A model generated the notes under the pieces. The model was not told the origin of the DNA. It worked only from the letters and a program-made list of their open reading frames with translations, and did no database searches. DNA of 64,000 nucleotides from Oceanimonas smirnovii ATCC BAA-899. Its GTDB lineage: Bacteria > Pseudomonadota > Gammaproteobacteria > Enterobacterales > Aeromonadaceae. Each line of letters opens with the position of its first letter. Within the stretch, counting starts at the first letter, position 1. Shown piece after piece: positions 15,336-23,656 of this stretch. A program made the translations under genes and the position numbers. The stretch spans positions 124,001 to 188,000 of the forward strand of contig NZ_KB908457.1 of NCBI RefSeq assembly GCF_000381965.1, read 5' to 3'.

Positions 15336-15842
15336 ATGCCCGCTATTGTTTCCGAGATAATGTCATCCCGCGTTCTGGGGTTGCCTCCTTCCGCCAGCCT
15401 GGCCGAAGCCCGCACCCTGATGCAACGCCACCATATTCGTCATTTGCCGGTGATAGAAAACGACAAGCTGATAGGCCTGATCAGCCAGCGGGATATTCTG
15501 GCGGCTCAGGAGTCCAGCCTGGAGCAGGGCCTTAACGGTGAGTTTCTGCAACAACATCAGCTGTCGGAAATCATGATCACCGGCGTCACCACCGTCAGCC
15601 CCCATGCCGGCGTGCGCGAAGCGGCACTGTATCTGCAAAAGCACAAATACGGCTGCCTGCCGGTAGTTAACAAAGGCAAACTGGTAGGCATAGTGACCGA
15701 CAGCGATTTTATCGGCGTGGCTATTCATCTGCTGGAAGTGCTGGATAACCAGCTGAACGAGCAGGACGACGAGCCGGATCTCGACGACTGGCAGGCAGAA
15801 GCCGACAGCACCGGCTACCGGGATGACTCCCCCAACGGATGA
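15336..15842 (+). CDS. CBS-domain pair protein
   Basis: 168 aa with two CBS domains, roughly residues 5-58 (IMSSRVLGLPPSASLAEARTL ... LIGLISQRDIL) and 76-130 (IMITGVTTVSPHAGVREAAL ... LVGIVTDSDFI), then an acidic tail. CBS pairs bind adenine nucleotides and usually act as sensors, but no effector domain is attached, so the target is unknown. AGAGGAGAG precedes the ATG. The stop overlaps the acpH start region, suggesting co-expression. Confidence 0.85.
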   Translation: MPAIVSEIMSSRVLGLPPSASLAEARTLMQRHHIRHLPVIENDKLIGLISQRDILAAQESSLEQGLNGEFLQQHQLSEIMITGVTTVSPHAGVREAALYLQKHKYGCLPVVNKGKLVGIVTDSDFIGVAIHLLEVLDNQLNEQDDEPDLDDWQAEADSTGYRDDSPNG

Positions 15843-16426
15843 ATTACCTGGCGCATCTGCATCTGGCGGAACTCAGCAATACCAGCCTGGCCGGTGCCCT
15901 GCTGGGGGAATATGCCAGGGGCGCAATAGACGCTTCTCTGCCTGCTCCGCTGCAAACCGGCATTGTGCTGCACAGGCGCATCGACAGCTTTACCGACGCG
16001 CACCCGCTCCATGCCGGGCAAGTGCGCGCCCTGCCGCCGCCGTTTCGCCGCTTTGGCGGTATTATTACCGACATGATGTTTGATCACTTTCTGGCCCGGC
16101 ACTGGCAGCGTTTTCATTCTCTGTCCCTTGAAGGCTTTGTGCAGCAGGCTCATGCTCAGCTTGAGCCCGACCGGCACTGGCCCCATTCCATGGTATTACT
16201 GGTGGCGCGCATGAAACAAAATAACCTGCTGCTGTATTACCGGGAGTTTGACGGCATCATTACCGCCCTTGGCCGGATTGATCAGCGCTTTAAACGCCCT
16301 ACGCCCCTGCCCCGCTGCCGGCCCGTACTGGAGCAGCACTACACCGGTTTTGAACAGGCTTTTCTCGATTTTTATCCCCAACTACAGCATTACGTTCTGC
16401 GCCAGGTGCGAGGGTTGGCCGGATAA
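15839..16426 (+). CDS. acpH: Acyl carrier protein phosphodiesterase
   Basis: 195 aa. AcpH removes 4'-phosphopantetheine from ACP to regenerate apo-ACP. The family start MNYLAHLHLA, the HRRIDSFTD block and DMMFDHFLARHW (HD-type metal ligands) are conserved. Its ATG overlaps the end of the CBS gene by four bases. The 3' end overlaps the end of the convergent kinase gene by 37 bp. A phosphopantetheinyl transferase, the opposite activity, is encoded at 30227-30937. Confidence 0.88.
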   Translation: MNYLAHLHLAELSNTSLAGALLGEYARGAIDASLPAPLQTGIVLHRRIDSFTDAHPLHAGQVRALPPPFRRFGGIITDMMFDHFLARHWQRFHSLSLEGFVQQAHAQLEPDRHWPHSMVLLVARMKQNNLLLYYREFDGIITALGRIDQRFKRPTPLPRCRPVLEQHYTGFEQAFLDFYPQLQHYVLRQVRGLAG

Positions 16427-18213
16427 AAGCAGTCGGGCTGCACCGGCTGATGCGTAAAGTGACGGGTATTTTTAAAAGGCAGCTTCATAAAGCCCCCCAC
16501 GCCCACATCGGTGATCAAAGGAATATGCTGCACAATCTGCGCCAGCAGGCCGGCAAATTCCGCCTCTGCCCTGGCGTCGAGCAGACGATAATAACTGTGC
16601 AGCTTAAGGTGCTCGGCGGTCACCTCAAAAATAATGCAGCCACTGTGATGAAGCTGGTTCAGCCTGGCAATCACCGCCATGATCTCGGCGGGCAGCATCA
16701 GTTGCTCGTCCGGATCCCGGCCATCCTCAAAATAAGAATGCGGCTGGCGGTCGGCACCGGTATCGGGCCTGTCTGCCAGCCGGTAGGGAATCTGCATCTC
16801 TGGCGGCGGCACAAAAGGCTGTTCCGGCCCGTTTCGGCTCAGATGCAAGGTATTACGGGCATTAAATAAACAGGCCTTGAACACACCGGTTTTGCTGATG
16901 GCCCGCGCCAGGGTCACCACATTATTGACCGCCACCACAAAGGCCGGCTGCAGCGACTCGTCATATAAATTCAGGCTGGAGTCGATATTCAGGCCTCGCT
17001 CATGCCAGTGAATGGCCAGCCCCCCCATCACCGGATAACGCCCCAGCCGGCTGACCGCGGCCACAAAGGCTTTTTCGGTTTCGCCCATGCCTTCCAGATA
17101 TTGCTTGTAGTAGCGCTCCAGCTGGGCATCTGCTAACTGCTGTATATCTTCCTGCTCACTGTGCTCCCGCAGAAACGACTTGCGCGAAGAATACACCACG
17201 GTTTCTATCTCCCGCCCGCCCCTGCTGAGCCACACCGGCAGCTGAGGCTCATCGTCAAACAGCGGCAGCTCGGGCAACACCAGCCGTTTTAACCGGGGCA
17301 TGGCCGCCAGCCAGTAATCCCCGGCCCGGCGGCTGAGTTCAGCGTCGTCCGACAGCATGGCATCCAGCAGCAAAGCAAACTCTTTGGGCAAGCCCAGACT
17401 GGTGGAGGGCATGGCCTTGCGGCCAAAACGACAGGCCTGCCCCGAGGCCAGCGCATACAGGGTGCCGGCTACCCCCTGCTCGTCAAAACGAGGGCTGGAC
17501 AGCGCGCCCGCCAGTTGCTCAGGGCCGATAAAATACACATCCCCCATGCGGGCATTGGACTGCTGCAAATCTCCCGACAGCAGCGCCAGCCCCTGAGCGC
17601 CGGCCCAGTTACCGTCGGCGTCCAGTTGCGCAAACACCGAAGAGCCCCAGTCCACCAGACTGATGCGGCCCGTATTTGAGTCATACATAATATTGGACGG
17701 TTTGATATCGCCGTGCACCACGGGTGCCGGCTCGCCATGATTGCGGTGGTTGCGTAATACCAGCAGGACCTCCGCCAGCTGAGCGGCAATGTCGATCACT
17801 TCCCGCGCCGGCAGCCGGCCACGGCGCAGACTGTAGTGATCCAGATCTTCACCGGCAGCCCGGCTCATCAACAAAATGCCCTGACGGCCGCGCAGGGCAT
17901 AGGCAATATAATCCGGAATTAACCGGTGCTGCACACAAGACAGCATATAGGCCTCGTCTGCCAGCCGCTCCCGCACCGCCTCGGGCAGATCAATGCGGGA
18001 GAACTTGAACGCCACCTGCTCACCCTGTGCGCCGGTGCCGGCAAAGGTGAACCCATAAACGCCCTTGCCCGCCAGGCTGATATTGCGATAACCCAGCTTT
18101 TCCAGCTCGGCAATGCACAGGGCAATCCAGTCTTTCAGCTTTTGGGCATCATTGGCACTGAGCAGATAAACCGACTGCTCCTCGGGAATATAAAAGTTGC
18201 CCAGGGCATCCAT
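16390..18213 (-). CDS. Hanks-type Ser/Thr protein kinase coupled to the bkd operon
   Basis: 607 aa. The N-terminal part (about 40-300) is a complete eukaryote-like kinase: glycine loop GKGVYGFTF (49-57), ATP lysine in VAFKF (K70), alphaC glutamate E87, catalytic loop HGDIKPSN (167-174) and metal motif DWG (188-190). All catalytic residues are present, so activity is expected. The remaining 300 residues match no family I recognise and show no membrane segment. The start codon overlaps the E2 stop in TGATG, so translation is coupled. The likely role, regulating the dehydrogenase or its flux, is inferred from context only. Confidence 0.85.
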   Translation of the reverse strand: MDALGNFYIPEEQSVYLLSANDAQKLKDWIALCIAELEKLGYRNISLAGKGVYGFTFAGTGAQGEQVAFKFSRIDLPEAVRERLADEAYMLSCVQHRLIPDYIAYALRGRQGILLMSRAAGEDLDHYSLRRGRLPAREVIDIAAQLAEVLLVLRNHRNHGEPAPVVHGDIKPSNIMYDSNTGRISLVDWGSSVFAQLDADGNWAGAQGLALLSGDLQQSNARMGDVYFIGPEQLAGALSSPRFDEQGVAGTLYALASGQACRFGRKAMPSTSLGLPKEFALLLDAMLSDDAELSRRAGDYWLAAMPRLKRLVLPELPLFDDEPQLPVWLSRGGREIETVVYSSRKSFLREHSEQEDIQQLADAQLERYYKQYLEGMGETEKAFVAAVSRLGRYPVMGGLAIHWHERGLNIDSSLNLYDESLQPAFVVAVNNVVTLARAISKTGVFKACLFNARNTLHLSRNGPEQPFVPPPEMQIPYRLADRPDTGADRQPHSYFEDGRDPDEQLMLPAEIMAVIARLNQLHHSGCIIFEVTAEHLKLHSYYRLLDARAEAEFAGLLAQIVQHIPLITDVGVGGFMKLPFKNTRHFTHQPVQPDCFYPANPRTWRRT

Positions 18214-19445
18214 CAGTGCAGCCGTGCCAGCATACGCCCGGGGTGTTCAAGATACTCCTGCCAGCAGCGGTTAAAGCGAGCCATGGTGGCCCCGTCTATG
18301 ACCCTGTGATCCGCCGACCAGCATACCGTCATGATATGAGTGGCCACTACCCTGTCCTGCTCGTCAAAGCGGAGCAGGCGCTGCAGCCTGCCCATGGCGG
18401 CAATGGCCAGCTGGGGCGGATTAACGATGGGGGTAGACACGGTGCCGCCCAGCATACCGATATTGGACAGACTGATGGTGGCCCCCGTAAGCTCGGCCTG
18501 AGTCAGGCGGCCATGGCGCGCCGCGTCCGACAAACGGCTCAGCTCCCGAGCAATGGTCAGCAGTGATTTATCTTCACAGTGATGCAGCACCGGCACCAGC
18601 AGGCCCGCCGGCGTATCCACCGCCACGCCCACATGATGGCCGTCTTCATACACCAGGCTCTGGCCGTCTTCATCGAGCCGGGCACCCAGCAGCGGATAGT
18701 CCGACAGCGCCAGCGACAGCGCCTTGATAAAAAACGGCAGCAGCGTCAGTTTCACTGCTTGCTGCTCAAATTCCGGTGCCAGCTGCTGCTTAAGCGCCAG
18801 CAGCTCATTCAGGCAAAACTCATCACAGAAGGTAAAACGGGGAATACTGAGGCTTGCGGTCATGTGCCGGGCCATGGCAGCACGTACGCCGGTAATGGGC
18901 TCGCGCCAGCCGGAGTCGCTGTGCATGTGCCGGTGCTTACTGCCCTGCAGCCAGGCTTCCACATCTTCCTTATACACCCGGCCCTTGTCGCCGGAGCCCG
19001 GCACCTCGGCAAGGTCGATATTGTACTCCCGGGCCAGCCGGCGCACCGCGGGGCTGGCCACCGCCCGGCTGCCGGCAGATTCGGATGTAGATGGCAGCTC
19101 CGGCTGGCTTTCGGCGTCAGAGCTGACGTCAGAGTCAGAGCTGGAGTCCGAGCTGGAGCCTGAGTCAATATCACTCTCGTGCTCAGGCCCGGCATCACTC
19201 TCCTCAACGGCCAGCTCCATTTCAAACAGCGGCGCATGCACTTTGGCCATCTCTCCCTTTTTTACATGCAGCTGGCTGATGATGCCCCCATGCACCGCCG
19301 GTATCTGCACCAGCGCCTTGTCGGTCATCACATCACAGATGGCCTGATCCTCTTCCACCCGGTCGCCTTCGGCCACCAGCCACTCCACCAGCTCGCACTC
19401 CACTATGCCTTCGCCGATATCCGGCAGAAAAAAGTCCTGCTTCAT
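18213..19445 (-). CDS. bkdB: Branched-chain 2-oxoacid dehydrogenase E2 (dihydrolipoyl acyltransferase)
   Basis: 410 aa. Domain order: lipoyl domain 1-80 with lipoyl lysine K43 (DVMTDKALVQIP), a linker 83-125 that is almost entirely Ser, Asp and Glu, a peripheral subunit-binding domain about 130-165 (SPAVRRLAREYNIDLAEVPGSG), and the catalytic domain ending with DHRVIDGA (H380, D384). It transfers branched acyl groups to CoA. The Ser/Asp linker is unlike the usual flexible Ala/Pro linker. It follows E1beta by 9 bp, and its stop overlaps the kinase start. No E3 gene is present, so lipoamide dehydrogenase must be shared from elsewhere. Confidence 0.93.
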   Translation of the reverse strand: MKQDFFLPDIGEGIVECELVEWLVAEGDRVEEDQAICDVMTDKALVQIPAVHGGIISQLHVKKGEMAKVHAPLFEMELAVEESDAGPEHESDIDSGSSSDSSSDSDVSSDAESQPELPSTSESAGSRAVASPAVRRLAREYNIDLAEVPGSGDKGRVYKEDVEAWLQGSKHRHMHSDSGWREPITGVRAAMARHMTASLSIPRFTFCDEFCLNELLALKQQLAPEFEQQAVKLTLLPFFIKALSLALSDYPLLGARLDEDGQSLVYEDGHHVGVAVDTPAGLLVPVLHHCEDKSLLTIARELSRLSDAARHGRLTQAELTGATISLSNIGMLGGTVSTPIVNPPQLAIAAMGRLQRLLRFDEQDRVVATHIMTVCWSADHRVIDGATMARFNRCWQEYLEHPGRMLARLH

Positions 19446-19454
19446 ACCGTTCTC

Positions 19455-20432
19455 CTAAAAATGAATGGTGGCCTCAAGAGCATCGAAAATCTTGTGCTCA
19501 TCAGGCATATAATGCTTTTCCAGCGCCAGTGGAAAAGGGGTGTCGGGGCCGCATACCCGGGCGACGGGACTTTCCAGATATAAAAAACAACGCTCCTGCA
19601 CGGTAGCGGCAATTTCGGCACCTACCCCACCGGTCAGCGGTGCCTCATGGCTTATCAGCAGCCGGCCGGTTTTCAGCACGGAATTGACCACGGTTTCTTC
19701 ATCCCAGGGCAGCAGGCTCTGCAGATCAATCACCTCGCAGGAGATGCCCTCTTTTTCCGCCATGTCCGCCGCTTTCAGCAGATATTCCAGCTGCGCCCCC
19801 CAGCCCAGCAGGGTAATATCGCGCCCTTTTCGCACTATCTCGGCCCGGTCCAGCGGCAACTGATAATAGCCTTCATCCACCTCGGCCACCGCCGCCCGGT
19901 ACAGCCGTTTAGGCTCAAAGAAAATCACCGGATCCGGACAGTCAATGGCGGCCAGCAGCAAGCCCTTGGCCTGCACCGGGCCTCTGGGGATCACCACTCT
20001 CAGGCCGGGCGTATGCACAAAATAGGCTTCCGGCGACTGACTGTGATAGTGCCCGCCGGCAATGCCGCCGCCATAAGGAGCCCGCACCACCAGGCCGCCC
20101 ACATTAAACTCGTTACCGGAGCGGTAACGAAACTTGGCGGTCTCATTCACAAGCTGATCAAAGGCGGGAAAGATATAATCGGCAAACTGAATTTCTGCCA
20201 CCGGCTTCAGCCCTTTGGCCGCCAGGCCATTGGCAAAGCCGGCAATGCCCTGCTCGGTAAGGGGCGTATTAAAGCAGCGCGCCTCGCCAAACTTGTCCTG
20301 CAGGCCGCTGGTGGCCCGGAACACACCGCCGAAGTGACCCACGTCTTCACCAAAGCAGAGCACACCGTCATCCCGCTCCATGGCCAGATGCAGCGCCTGA
20401 TTCACCGCCTGCAACAGGTTCATTTGTTTCAT
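19455..20432 (-). CDS. bkdA2: Branched-chain 2-oxoacid dehydrogenase E1 beta subunit
   Basis: 325 aa. With E1alpha it forms the thiamine-diphosphate decarboxylase for 2-oxoacids from Val, Leu and Ile. Family features are visible: [48 protein letters not shown] and the C-terminal [16 protein letters not shown]. The start overlaps the E1alpha stop in ATGA, coupling synthesis of the two subunits. Confidence 0.94.
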
Positions 20433-21589
20433 TGTGCTCCTCCCCGCTTGTTGGCGCTGGCTTTAAGCTGCTTCAGCTGCCGCTGCAAGTGAGCCGGCGG
20501 CTCGCCATACACATCCTCAATCAGGCTGTCCAGCGGCGGTTTGGGCACCTGCTCCGCCTGCTTCATCGCCTCCAGAATGTGCCGGCGCAGCGCATCCTGC
20601 TGGCGGCGATCCTCGTCTTCGCTGAGCCAGCCCTGATGCTGCAGCCAGCGCCGGTAACGGCCGATGGGATCCCGCTTGCGCCAGCGCTCTTCTTCGGCTT
20701 TGGAGCGATAACCGCTGGGATCATCGGAAGAAGAATGCGCCCCCAGCCGGTAAGACATGGCTTCAATCAACACCGGCTGCGACTCCTTCAGCATCAGTTG
20801 CCGGGCCTGCAGCGTGGCCTCATACACCGCCAGGGCATCGGCTCCGTCCACCCGCAGGGTGCGAATGCCATAGCCCACCGCCCGGCTGGCAATGCCGTCT
20901 CCCACAAACTGCTCGCTGGCCGGCGTGGAAATGGCATAACCATTATTGCGGCAAAAGAAAATCACCGGGGTTTTCAGCACCGCCGCCATGTTCACCCCCG
21001 CATGAAAGTCTCCTTCCGAGGCGGCCCCTTCGCCGAAATAGCAGAGCGTAACCGCCTCCTCACCGGCCAGCCGCTGGCCATAGGCAAAGCCGGTGGCCTG
21101 AGGAATTTGCGTGGCCAGCGGGGAAGAAATGGTCATAACGTTAAGCTCACGGCTGCCGTAATGCACCGGCATCTGCCGGCCCTTGCCCAAATCCCGCTCG
21201 TTGGAAAACAGCTGATTCATAAATTGCTCAAGGGTAAAACCCCGGTGCAGCAGAGCACCCTGCTCCCGGTATTGGGCCATTATCATGTCTTGCGGGGCCA
21301 GCGCCGCCGCACTGGCTACCGCCTGGGCCTCTTCACCCAGACTCTGCAGATAAAAACTGATGCGCCCCTGACGCTGAGCCGCCAGCATGCGTTCATCCAG
21401 CAAGCGGGTGGCCACCATGCTGTGATACATGGCCAGTGCCTGCTCCTTGCCGATATCGGGTGCACTGGCCCCCGCATAAAGCTGGCCGTCGTCTTTCAGC
21501 AGGCGAAAGGTAGGAATGGTCAGGCCGTGGCCGTCCACAAACCGGACCCGGTGCATCAGGCTAATGGTGGCGTTATTGGGATTGGTCAT
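20429..21589 (-). CDS. bkdA1: Branched-chain 2-oxoacid dehydrogenase E1 alpha subunit
   Basis: 386 aa. The thiamine-diphosphate motif is visible as [11 protein letters not shown] with NNGYAIS some 20 residues later. A loop at residues 280-297 ([18 protein letters not shown]) aligns with the phosphorylation loop of the mammalian enzyme, with serines at both mammalian phosphosite positions (S286 and S296 here). The C-terminal helical tail ([18 protein letters not shown]) is typical. It is the first gene of the bkd-kinase operon. The transcript starts just downstream of the aceA terminator. Confidence 0.94.
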
Positions 21590-21734: not shown

Positions 21735-23333
21735 TCAGATGTTTTCGAACTGACCCATGGTGTTGTCTTTACCACCGGCCTTGAGAGCGGCCTCACCGGC
21801 AAAGAATTCTTTATGGTCGTCACCAATGTTGGAGCCGGCCATGTCCTGGTGTTTGACGGTGGCAATGCCCTGACGAATTTCCTGGCGCTGAACACCTGCC
21901 ACATAGGCCAGCATGCCTTCGTCACCGAAGTAACCCTTGGCCAGGTTGTCGGTAGACAGGGCCGCAGTGTGGTAAGTAGGCAGGGTGATCAGGTGGTGGA
22001 AGATACCGGCTTCACGGGCTGCGTCGCGCTGGAAGTTTGCGGTCCACTCATCGGCCAGCTGAGCCAGCTCGGTGCTGTCGTAATCGGCGCTCATCAGGCG
22101 GTCGCGGTCATAGGCGGATACATCCTTACCTTCTTCGGCCCAGGCATCGAACACCTGCTGACGGAAGTTCAGAGTCCAGTTGAACGACGGGCTGTTGTTG
22201 TACACCAGCTTGGCATCGGGCACCACGGCGCGAATGCGGTCAACCATGCCTTTGATCTGGCCGATGTGCGGTTTCTCGGTTTCAATCCACAGCAGGTCGG
22301 CACCGTTTTGCAGGCTGGCAATACAGTCCATTACCACACGGTCTTCACCGGATCCTTCCTTGAACTGGAACAGACCGGAAGCCAGACGCTTGGGCCGAAC
22401 CAGTTTGCCGTTTTGCTTGATAACCACATCGCCGTTGGCAATGTCGTCGGCACTTTGAATTTCGTCACCGTCAATAAAGCTGTTGTACTGGTCACCCAGA
22501 TCACCCGGCTCATTGGTCACGGCAATTTGCTTGGTCAGGCCGGCACCCAGAGAATCGGTACGGGCAACAATTACACCATCGTCCACACCCAGCTCAAGGA
22601 AGGCCAGACGCACGGCGTTAATCTTGGCCAGGAAGTCGGCGTGCGGCACGGTCACCTTGCCGTCCTGGTGGCCACACTGCTTCTCGTCGGATACCTGGTT
22701 TTCCAGCTGAATACAGCAGGCACCGGCTTCAATCATCTTCTTGGCCAGCAGATAGGTGGCTTCCGCATTACCAAAACCGGCGTCAATGTCGGCAACAATC
22801 GGCACTATGTGGGTTTCATGGTTATCGATTTGGGCGGTGATCTCTTTTGCTTTAGCAGTATCACCGGCTTTCTGGGCCTCTTCCAGCGCACGGAACAGAT
22901 GGTTCAGTTCCCAGGAATCAGCCTGGCGCAGAAAGGTGTACAGCTCTTCAATCAGGGCCGGCACAGAGGTTTTCTCGTGCATGGACTGATCCGGCAGCGG
23001 ACCGAACTCGGAGCGCAGGGCGGCCACCATCCAGCCAGACAGGTAGAGGTAGCGGCGCTTGGTGCTGCCAAAGTGCTTCTTGATGGAAATCAGCTTTTGT
23101 TGGCCGATAAAACCGTGCCAGCAGCCCAGAGACTGGGTGTATTGCGCCGGATCCTTGTCATAGGCAGCCATGTCTTCACGCATGATTTTGGCGGTGTATT
23201 TGGCAATGTCCAGACCGGTCTTGAATTGATTCTGCACGCGCATGCGGGCGGCATGTTCAGGTTTAATGGCACTCCAGCTCGGGTTTTGCTTGATAAGAGT
23301 GGCCAGGGTATCTATCTCGTTTGCGTATGGCAT
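21735..23333 (-). CDS. aceA: Isocitrate lyase
   Basis: 532 aa from the ATG at 23333 (MPYANEIDTLA), preferred because AGGAC lies seven bases upstream and the length then equals the Pseudomonas form (531). ATGs at 23369 and 23378 would add up to 15 residues. The enzyme splits isocitrate into glyoxylate and succinate for growth on acetate or fatty acids. The catalytic KQCGH (C220) is visible, and QVSDEKQCGHQDGKVTVPH marks the longer Pseudomonas-type subfamily rather than the 434-aa E. coli type. It is monocistronic with a strong terminator; malate synthase is not in the window. Confidence 0.95.
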   Translation of the reverse strand: MPYANEIDTLATLIKQNPSWSAIKPEHAARMRVQNQFKTGLDIAKYTAKIMREDMAAYDKDPAQYTQSLGCWHGFIGQQKLISIKKHFGSTKRRYLYLSGWMVAALRSEFGPLPDQSMHEKTSVPALIEELYTFLRQADSWELNHLFRALEEAQKAGDTAKAKEITAQIDNHETHIVPIVADIDAGFGNAEATYLLAKKMIEAGACCIQLENQVSDEKQCGHQDGKVTVPHADFLAKINAVRLAFLELGVDDGVIVARTDSLGAGLTKQIAVTNEPGDLGDQYNSFIDGDEIQSADDIANGDVVIKQNGKLVRPKRLASGLFQFKEGSGEDRVVMDCIASLQNGADLLWIETEKPHIGQIKGMVDRIRAVVPDAKLVYNNSPSFNWTLNFRQQVFDAWAEEGKDVSAYDRDRLMSADYDSTELAQLADEWTANFQRDAAREAGIFHHLITLPTYHTAALSTDNLAKGYFGDEGMLAYVAGVQRQEIRQGIATVKHQDMAGSNIGDDHKEFFAGEAALKAGGKDNTMGQFENI

Positions 23334-23656
23334 GGTTCCAGTCCTGTCTTGTTTGAAGTTGTCGTCCATCTCTGTCATACCAGCCTGTTCACCGCCGCTT
23401 GGCTGATCTGTCAGTTCACATAGTTATTTTTATAGAGCGCCTGGTAGCGCGTTTCCGTTTGTCTGGCTTGTTACAGCAAAAACTTTACCGAACAGTGCCG
23501 TTTCTTGTTGTGTTGCGGTGTGGTTATTAAGTTGCGCAAAAAATCAGATTTGTTCAAGATCCGATTTAACTAAAACACAACACACATCACACTCCTTCAC
23601 CTGCTTGCTACCAAAGTCGCATGGCACCAAACACCTGATAAAACCGGTCTTGCAAA

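Follow-up and report, generated by a model that had tools for sequence, protein, structure and literature searches.

The mammalian branched-chain dehydrogenase, a mitochondrial complex, is controlled by phosphorylation through BCKDK, a kinase of the GHKL type. A second system of this kind is AceK, the isocitrate dehydrogenase kinase/phosphatase, which is encoded in the aceBAK operon. Here we describe a stretch of 64,000 nucleotides from Oceanimonas smirnovii ATCC BAA-899 (contig NZ_KB908457.1, positions 124,001 to 188,000; "the window" designates this whole stretch) in which genes for the E1alpha, E1beta and E2 subunits of a predicted branched-chain 2-oxoacid dehydrogenase (bkd genes) are followed by a gene for a Hanks-type protein kinase. 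Genome comparisons make a functional association of this kinase with the dehydrogenase likely: a kinase that has kept its catalytic residues, occurs with one complex and seems to move with it has that complex, or the pathway around it, as its most likely target. Phosphorylation of the dehydrogenase itself is plausible.

All four genes lie on the minus strand. The E1alpha gene (BCKDHA-like; 20429..21589; PF00676, E1_dh, E-value 1.3e-96) overlaps that of E1beta (19455..20432; PF02779 and PF02780, Transket_pyr and Transketolase_C) by 4 bp. A gap of 9 bp separates E1beta from the E2 acyltransferase (18213..19445), which carries lipoyl, E3-binding and catalytic domains (PF00364, PF02817 and PF00198, the last being 2-oxoacid_dh with an E-value of 1.2e-78), and the E2 gene shares 1 bp with that of the kinase (16390..18213; 607 amino acids; PF00069, 3.7e-17). 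Strand, order and spacing agree with the preliminary description, including the TGATG motif (18211..18215, minus strand, read directly from the sequence) in which the E2 stop and the kinase start overlap at base 18213. The Pfam domains of E1alpha, E1beta and E2 occur in the order expected of a branched-chain 2-oxoacid dehydrogenase, and there is no E3 gene within the operon. Among solved structures, the best match of E1alpha is the branched-chain E1alpha 1dtw (405 bits), which we take to be the human BCKDHA entry. Lower matches are 1um9 (253 bits), the pyruvate dehydrogenase (PDH) E1alpha 1w85 (244 bits), 2bp7 and 1qs0 (232-233 bits; both presumably from Pseudomonas putida) and the mitochondrial PDH E1alpha 6cer (125 bits), so that the protein is closer to the branched-chain than to the pyruvate enzyme. 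The NCBIfam models point the other way: no equivalog exceeded its cut-off for E1alpha and the top model was a PDH E1alpha, with 368 of the 411 bits required. The operon most likely encodes a branched-chain 2-oxoacid dehydrogenase, its substrate specificity being predicted.

The kinase matches the Pkinase profile PF00069 with 63 bits against a curated cut-off of 31.7 and is thus of Hanks type. Only two other Pfam families were matched, APH (29 bits, cut-off 23.2) and PK_Tyr_Ser-Thr. The catalytic residues K70, E87, D169, N174 and D188 are found where they had been placed in the preliminary description and are invariant in both kinase alignments (25 and 45 sequences, overlapping, window included). 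Its catalytic loop reads HGD and its metal-binding motif DWG, in place of the HRD and DFG usual in kinases. The catalytic domain spans approximately residues 39-303 (17305..18099, minus strand), as judged from the Pfam match at residues 43-260 and the secondary structure of the model; its ends are approximate. In a Foldseek search its nearest folds were protein kinases, the first being PknA (4ow8; E-value 8.6e-9, template modelling score by target 0.66). It is followed by a C-terminal domain (residues 325-607; 16390..17241, minus strand) that is as conserved as the kinase domain and shows two beta-beta-alpha-beta units in the model. The mean predicted local distance difference test score is 76.3 for the whole kinase and 77.4 for the C-terminal domain modelled separately. 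This domain had no Pfam match at an E-value of 0.1, a fold search of the PDB gave nothing at 0.001 (best 0.34), and no relatives of it were found among viral contigs. No plasmid-borne copies of the kinase were found at 1e-40 in 72,556 plasmid records.

The highest mean Kyte-Doolittle hydropathy of the kinase over 19 residues is 1.36, no membrane segment is apparent, and the protein is probably soluble. Named relatives at 87-88% identity are from Oceanimonas. Against three Oceanimonas genomes, dS ranges over 0.74-2.0, and the ratio of nonsynonymous to synonymous divergence (dN/dS) comes to 0.066-0.074 in the kinase and to 0.056-0.093 in the dehydrogenase subunits; the kinase gene is under purifying selection, like those of the dehydrogenase. 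Three known kinase types were considered and set aside. The mammalian-type BCKDK/PDK (GHKL) family, of which we take BCDHK_Adom3 and HATPase_c to be the test profiles, is not among the three Pfam families matched, and the C-terminal part is likewise without a match. AceK gave no match in Pfam or NCBIfam at an E-value of 0.001. A PASTA kinase of the Stk1/PknB type is not indicated either, with 34 bits for the Stk1 model against a cut-off of 450, no PASTA match and no evident membrane segment. The matches to an anti-phage kinase, namely the PD-T4-6 defence family (PDLC04042, 62.6 bits, a profile without curated cut-off), are confined to the kinase domain (residues 42-266). In one relative (L019, genome G013), the kinase reading frame is broken in two near residue 450 and the E1beta match begins only at residue 23.

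The distribution of the two genes was surveyed in 394 evenly drawn genomes of the order, with E-value thresholds of 1e-60 for the kinase profile and 1e-100 for bkd E1beta. The kinase was found in 80 genomes and E1beta in 83, and all 80 kinase genomes also carry E1beta. In family f6 (f6/g8 includes Shewanella, while f1/g1 includes Oceanimonas, Oceanisphaera and Zobellella), bkd is present in 126/126 genomes and the kinase in 119, all 119 with bkd; since bkd is universal there, f6 is unable to show any dependence of the kinase on bkd. A draw of 274 genomes across the class gave the kinase (E-value 1e-40) in three, the same three that have E1beta at 71% identity or more; 13 others have E1beta at 51-56% and no kinase. 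A kinase without bkd was not seen among the surveyed genomes of stated completeness. As bkd without the kinase does occur, the pattern is the one expected of an accessory regulator.

The two are also repeatedly adjacent. In 37 of the 80 kinase genomes of the order draw, representing 13 of 19 genera, the kinase gene follows E1beta on the same strand at a distance of no more than 4 kb (12/12 in f1, 1/1 in f21, 24/28 in f7). Linkage persists in f7 even though the interval between E2 and the kinase varies (empty, or occupied by an AAA ATPase or other genes). The preliminary description had called for a check of whether the pairing extends beyond close relatives, and it does: within the order the genes are adjacent or nearly so in f1, f21 and f7, and likewise in f192 of another order, where genome G616 has E1alpha, E1beta and E2 followed after 13 bp by the kinase. 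In 52 of 80 named loci, the kinase is preceded on its own strand by bkd genes (Oceanimonas, Oceanisphaera, Zobellella, Rheinheimera, Alkalimonas, Arsukibacterium and metagenome-assembled genomes, MAGs). The 28 without adjacent bkd comprise 19 Shewanella, five Alishewanella, an uncultured MAG (L104) and three short or cut contigs (L076, L081, L082); among these 28, L062, L068, L107 and L109 also have less than 1.3 kb of upstream sequence. The five Alishewanella genomes carry bkd elsewhere.

Gene trees suggest that the kinase and bkd have moved together. Quick trees without bootstrap were built for the kinase and for E1alpha+E1beta from 32 rows (31 different). In both, nine f1 rows are united with eleven rows from Rheinheimera, Arsukibacterium, Alkalimonas and Alishewanella with 100% support in the Shimodaira-Hasegawa-like approximate likelihood ratio test. 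In contrast, the tree of SecD, used as species marker in 28 genomes, places f1 beside its family members G023 and G024 (98%). The mean distance separating f1 from six rows of the Rheinheimera group, divided by that from f1 to the others, is 0.41 for the kinase and 0.53 for bkd but 0.96 for SecD. The concordance of the kinase and bkd trees, contrary to SecD, fits a probable joint transfer, most simply read as a common entry of bkd and the kinase into the f1 ancestor. Families f21 and f192 are joined in the E1 tree (93%) and left unresolved by that of the kinase; as each sits on a long branch, their joining may be false. Distances over 26 genomes correlate between kinase and bkd (r 0.79), kinase and SecD (0.70) and bkd and SecD (0.64), with a partial r of 0.62 for kinase and bkd, which is suggestive only, the pairs not being independent.

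The explanation that we favour, tentatively and at slightly below an even chance, is that of a dedicated kinase which serves the dehydrogenase. It would phosphorylate a subunit of the complex, the first candidates being E1alpha S286 or its neighbours, or E2, and thereby tune the flux from branched-chain 2-oxoacids. The C-terminal domain might dock on the complex, or sense its substrates or products. That the dehydrogenase is the substrate is our inference, as are the residue modified, whether activity would rise or fall, and the part played by the C-terminal domain.

A number of observations weigh against this explanation. Ten genomes in total have bkd and no kinase, seven of them at least 99% complete. 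In the order draw they are G186 (80% complete), G396 and G404 (both 99%, 2.5-2.7 Mb); in f6 they are all five g337 genomes (100%, 4.2-5.5 Mb) and both of g336, G687 (95%) and G690 (62%). The f6 examples imply that the dehydrogenase is able to do without the kinase. In a further survey, E1beta was found in 15 of 17 kinase genomes and not detected in G411 and G412, two MAGs whose completeness is not stated. None of these co-occurrence counts is phylogenetically independent. In genus g1, that of the window, four genomes lack both genes, for which the SecD tree requires two changes. As the genes adjoin in g1, however, the joint absence may be one deletion of neighbours; co-loss within g1 was therefore dropped as a test of partnership, two changes being too few and explicable by such a deletion. 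The species marker is SecD alone, and a second SecD copy exists in the Rheinheimera-group genomes G273, G781 and G783. The kinase is unlinked in 43 of the 80 order-draw genomes, including all of f6 (32/32) and f17 (7/7). Unlinked pairs that share a contig are separated by 122 kb to 3.2 Mb, and the remaining ones are on different contigs. The preliminary description had considered that a kinase family usually lying away from bkd would speak against the pairing: this is the situation in f6 and f17 (0/39 linked), and over the whole draw 43 of the 80 genomes have the two unlinked.

Translational coupling, from which the preliminary description had inferred the target, was likewise abandoned as the main argument because it is not a conserved trait. 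Among 23 loci, TGATG occurs only in the window; the spacers between E2 and the kinase in the other 22 (one genome counted twice) range from 3 bp to 1.4 kb, which is a further point against the proposed partnership. Within the genus they measure 3 to 36 bp, except in G014 (77 bp) and G005 (120 bp). They are 13 bp in L165 and 40 bp in L166, and in f7 70-86 bp, about 350 bp or, with an inserted gene, 1.4 kb. Start codons exist upstream of the aligned start, and an alternative start in L038 would give a 55-bp overlap with E2. An inverted repeat after the E2 stop and before the kinase in G005, less perfect in G014 (L034, L017), is possibly a terminator or operator.

Nor do the subunits single out a site. 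S286 lies within the E1alpha loop of 17 residues (280-296; 20702..20752, minus strand, coordinates derived from the residue numbers) and aligns with the GHHS serine of 1dtw, presumably the mammalian regulatory phosphosite. A serine occupies the position in 51/51 near rows with and without the kinase (window included, one genome twice), and four distant rows have Ser in three cases and Thr in one. Being present irrespective of the kinase, it is uninformative as a diagnostic site. No Ser/Thr in E1alpha, E1beta or E2 separates the two groups, on a criterion of presence in 85% or more of the rows with the kinase and in no more than half of those lacking it. The loop is the same in both groups, and S286 is a candidate site. 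The Ser/acidic-rich linker of the window E2 was rejected as a target, as it is not common to the two other Oceanimonas compared. A PP2C partner was also discarded for its inconsistent presence: PP2C_2, the sole phosphatase family searched, was found in 6 of 14 genomes and in none of the kinase-bearing G002, G040 and G616. In G002, no protein other than the bkd-associated kinase passes the Pkinase cut-off. At another place in the genome of the window (G000:C21:19291-20702), a PP2C-like phosphatase gene stands beside another Hanks-type kinase.

An alternative is that the kinase is part of branched-chain metabolism with its target at another point, such as a transcription factor, a transporter or the use of fatty-acid primers, so that the genes would travel together although the dehydrogenase is not the substrate. 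We regard this as rather unlikely, while taking it seriously: co-occurrence and co-transfer name no substrate, the subunits show no differential phosphosite and the kinase is unlinked from bkd in Shewanella. Speaking against it, the genes that otherwise flank the kinase in the loci that were read are not the same in Shewanella-type as in Rheinheimera-type genomes.

Alternatively, the gene order could be ancestral and devoid of function, the kinase having hitchhiked with bkd while performing a general signalling role, as would fit the genomes of Shewanella, Alishewanella and f17, which retain it away from bkd. A gene of the AstE/AspA family (succinylglutamate desuccinylase/aspartoacylase; for example L167:4994-6064, with equivalents in f6, f7 and f17 genomes) shows how far neighbourhood can be trusted. 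It lies upstream of E1alpha in 39 of 54 bkd loci, including 10/10 without the kinase, and has no obvious role, so that a conserved neighbourhood alone is weak evidence. No such gene was seen (tblastn, E-value 1e-10) in eight f1 loci, of which L039 has too little upstream sequence to judge, nor in f21, f192, L183 and four distant loci. At the f1, f21 and f192 operons the kinase is present and the AstE-like gene was not seen; thus, when the operon moved, the kinase is the one of its two long-standing neighbours that stayed with it. That the kinase but not the AstE-like gene accompanied bkd in apparent moves between families, and that no kinase is found without bkd in genomes of stated completeness, makes simple hitchhiking improbable. 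It is very improbable indeed that the protein phosphorylates a small molecule or is some other nucleotide transferase with a kinase fold, as the APH score and the HGD and DWG motifs might suggest, since Pkinase scores higher and the nearest folds are protein kinases.

Other genes around these operons deserve mention. Directly upstream of E1alpha in the window is an isocitrate lyase gene (547 amino acids; 21735-23378, minus strand), found likewise in Oceanimonas and Oceanisphaera loci and without a match in Rheinheimera loci. The 3' end of the kinase gene (16390-16426) overlaps by 37 bp a convergent acyl carrier protein phosphodiesterase gene (15839-16426, plus strand). In a Rheinheimera locus, an AAA ATPase gene (PF00004; L049:6501-7985) separates E2 from the kinase. 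Behind the kinase, this locus (L049:9969-11447) and one of Alishewanella (L060:9962-11542) have a GAF-domain gene followed by a gene of about 102 amino acids without Pfam match; L049 has a ProQ-family gene further on.

A 2010 classification of prokaryotic kinases (PMC2877116) contains a Gammaproteobacteria-specific cluster 5 with members in Shewanella, Pseudoalteromonas, Alteromonas and Marinobacter. Its distribution may overlap that of the window kinase family, with which it is perhaps identical, and in the main text of that article the words "dehydrogenase" and "operon" each occur zero times. Among the matches listed in the open-access literature, with subscription papers mostly outside the scope, no description of a pairing of bkd with a Hanks-type kinase was found. 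In our view, it is seldom that genomics allows one to guess the substrate of a bacterial Hanks-type kinase. As Shewanella is tractable and its kinase is unlinked from bkd, the question of partnership is directly testable there.

The window kinase resembles PknA, PknB and Stk1 in the fold of its kinase domain, PknA being first in the Foldseek search, but differs from them in having no evident membrane segment or PASTA match and another C-terminal domain. With AceK it shares the situation of a bacterial kinase of a metabolic enzyme encoded among metabolic genes, and the window too has isocitrate lyase upstream; unlike AceK, which it does not match, its putative target is a different dehydrogenase. 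A further parallel is the BCKDK system, in which a kinase is likewise tied to a branched-chain dehydrogenase; the window E1alpha, nearest to 1dtw among solved structures, also carries the serine-bearing loop. The window kinase, in contrast, matches Pkinase, APH and PK_Tyr_Ser-Thr and not the GHKL-type profiles, and phosphorylation of the complex would be its presumed rather than its known activity. The preliminary description was thus borne out in regarding the kinase as unrelated to the mammalian type, given the absence of a BCKDK profile match and the Hanks-type fold of the model; that it represents an independent regulatory solution is a more conjectural proposal. The apparent travel of the kinase gene with bkd between families suggests that a phosphorylation switch for the branched-chain enzyme may have evolved in bacteria in its own right. 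It is conceivable, if somewhat doubtful, that they did so independently of mitochondria and on another kinase fold, with a dedicated kinase for a mitochondrial-type dehydrogenase, a fused sensor or docking domain and a single regulated module moving between lineages. If true, phosphorylation control of branched-chain 2-oxoacid oxidation would have arisen at least twice on unrelated kinase folds, in mitochondria and in marine Gammaproteobacteria.

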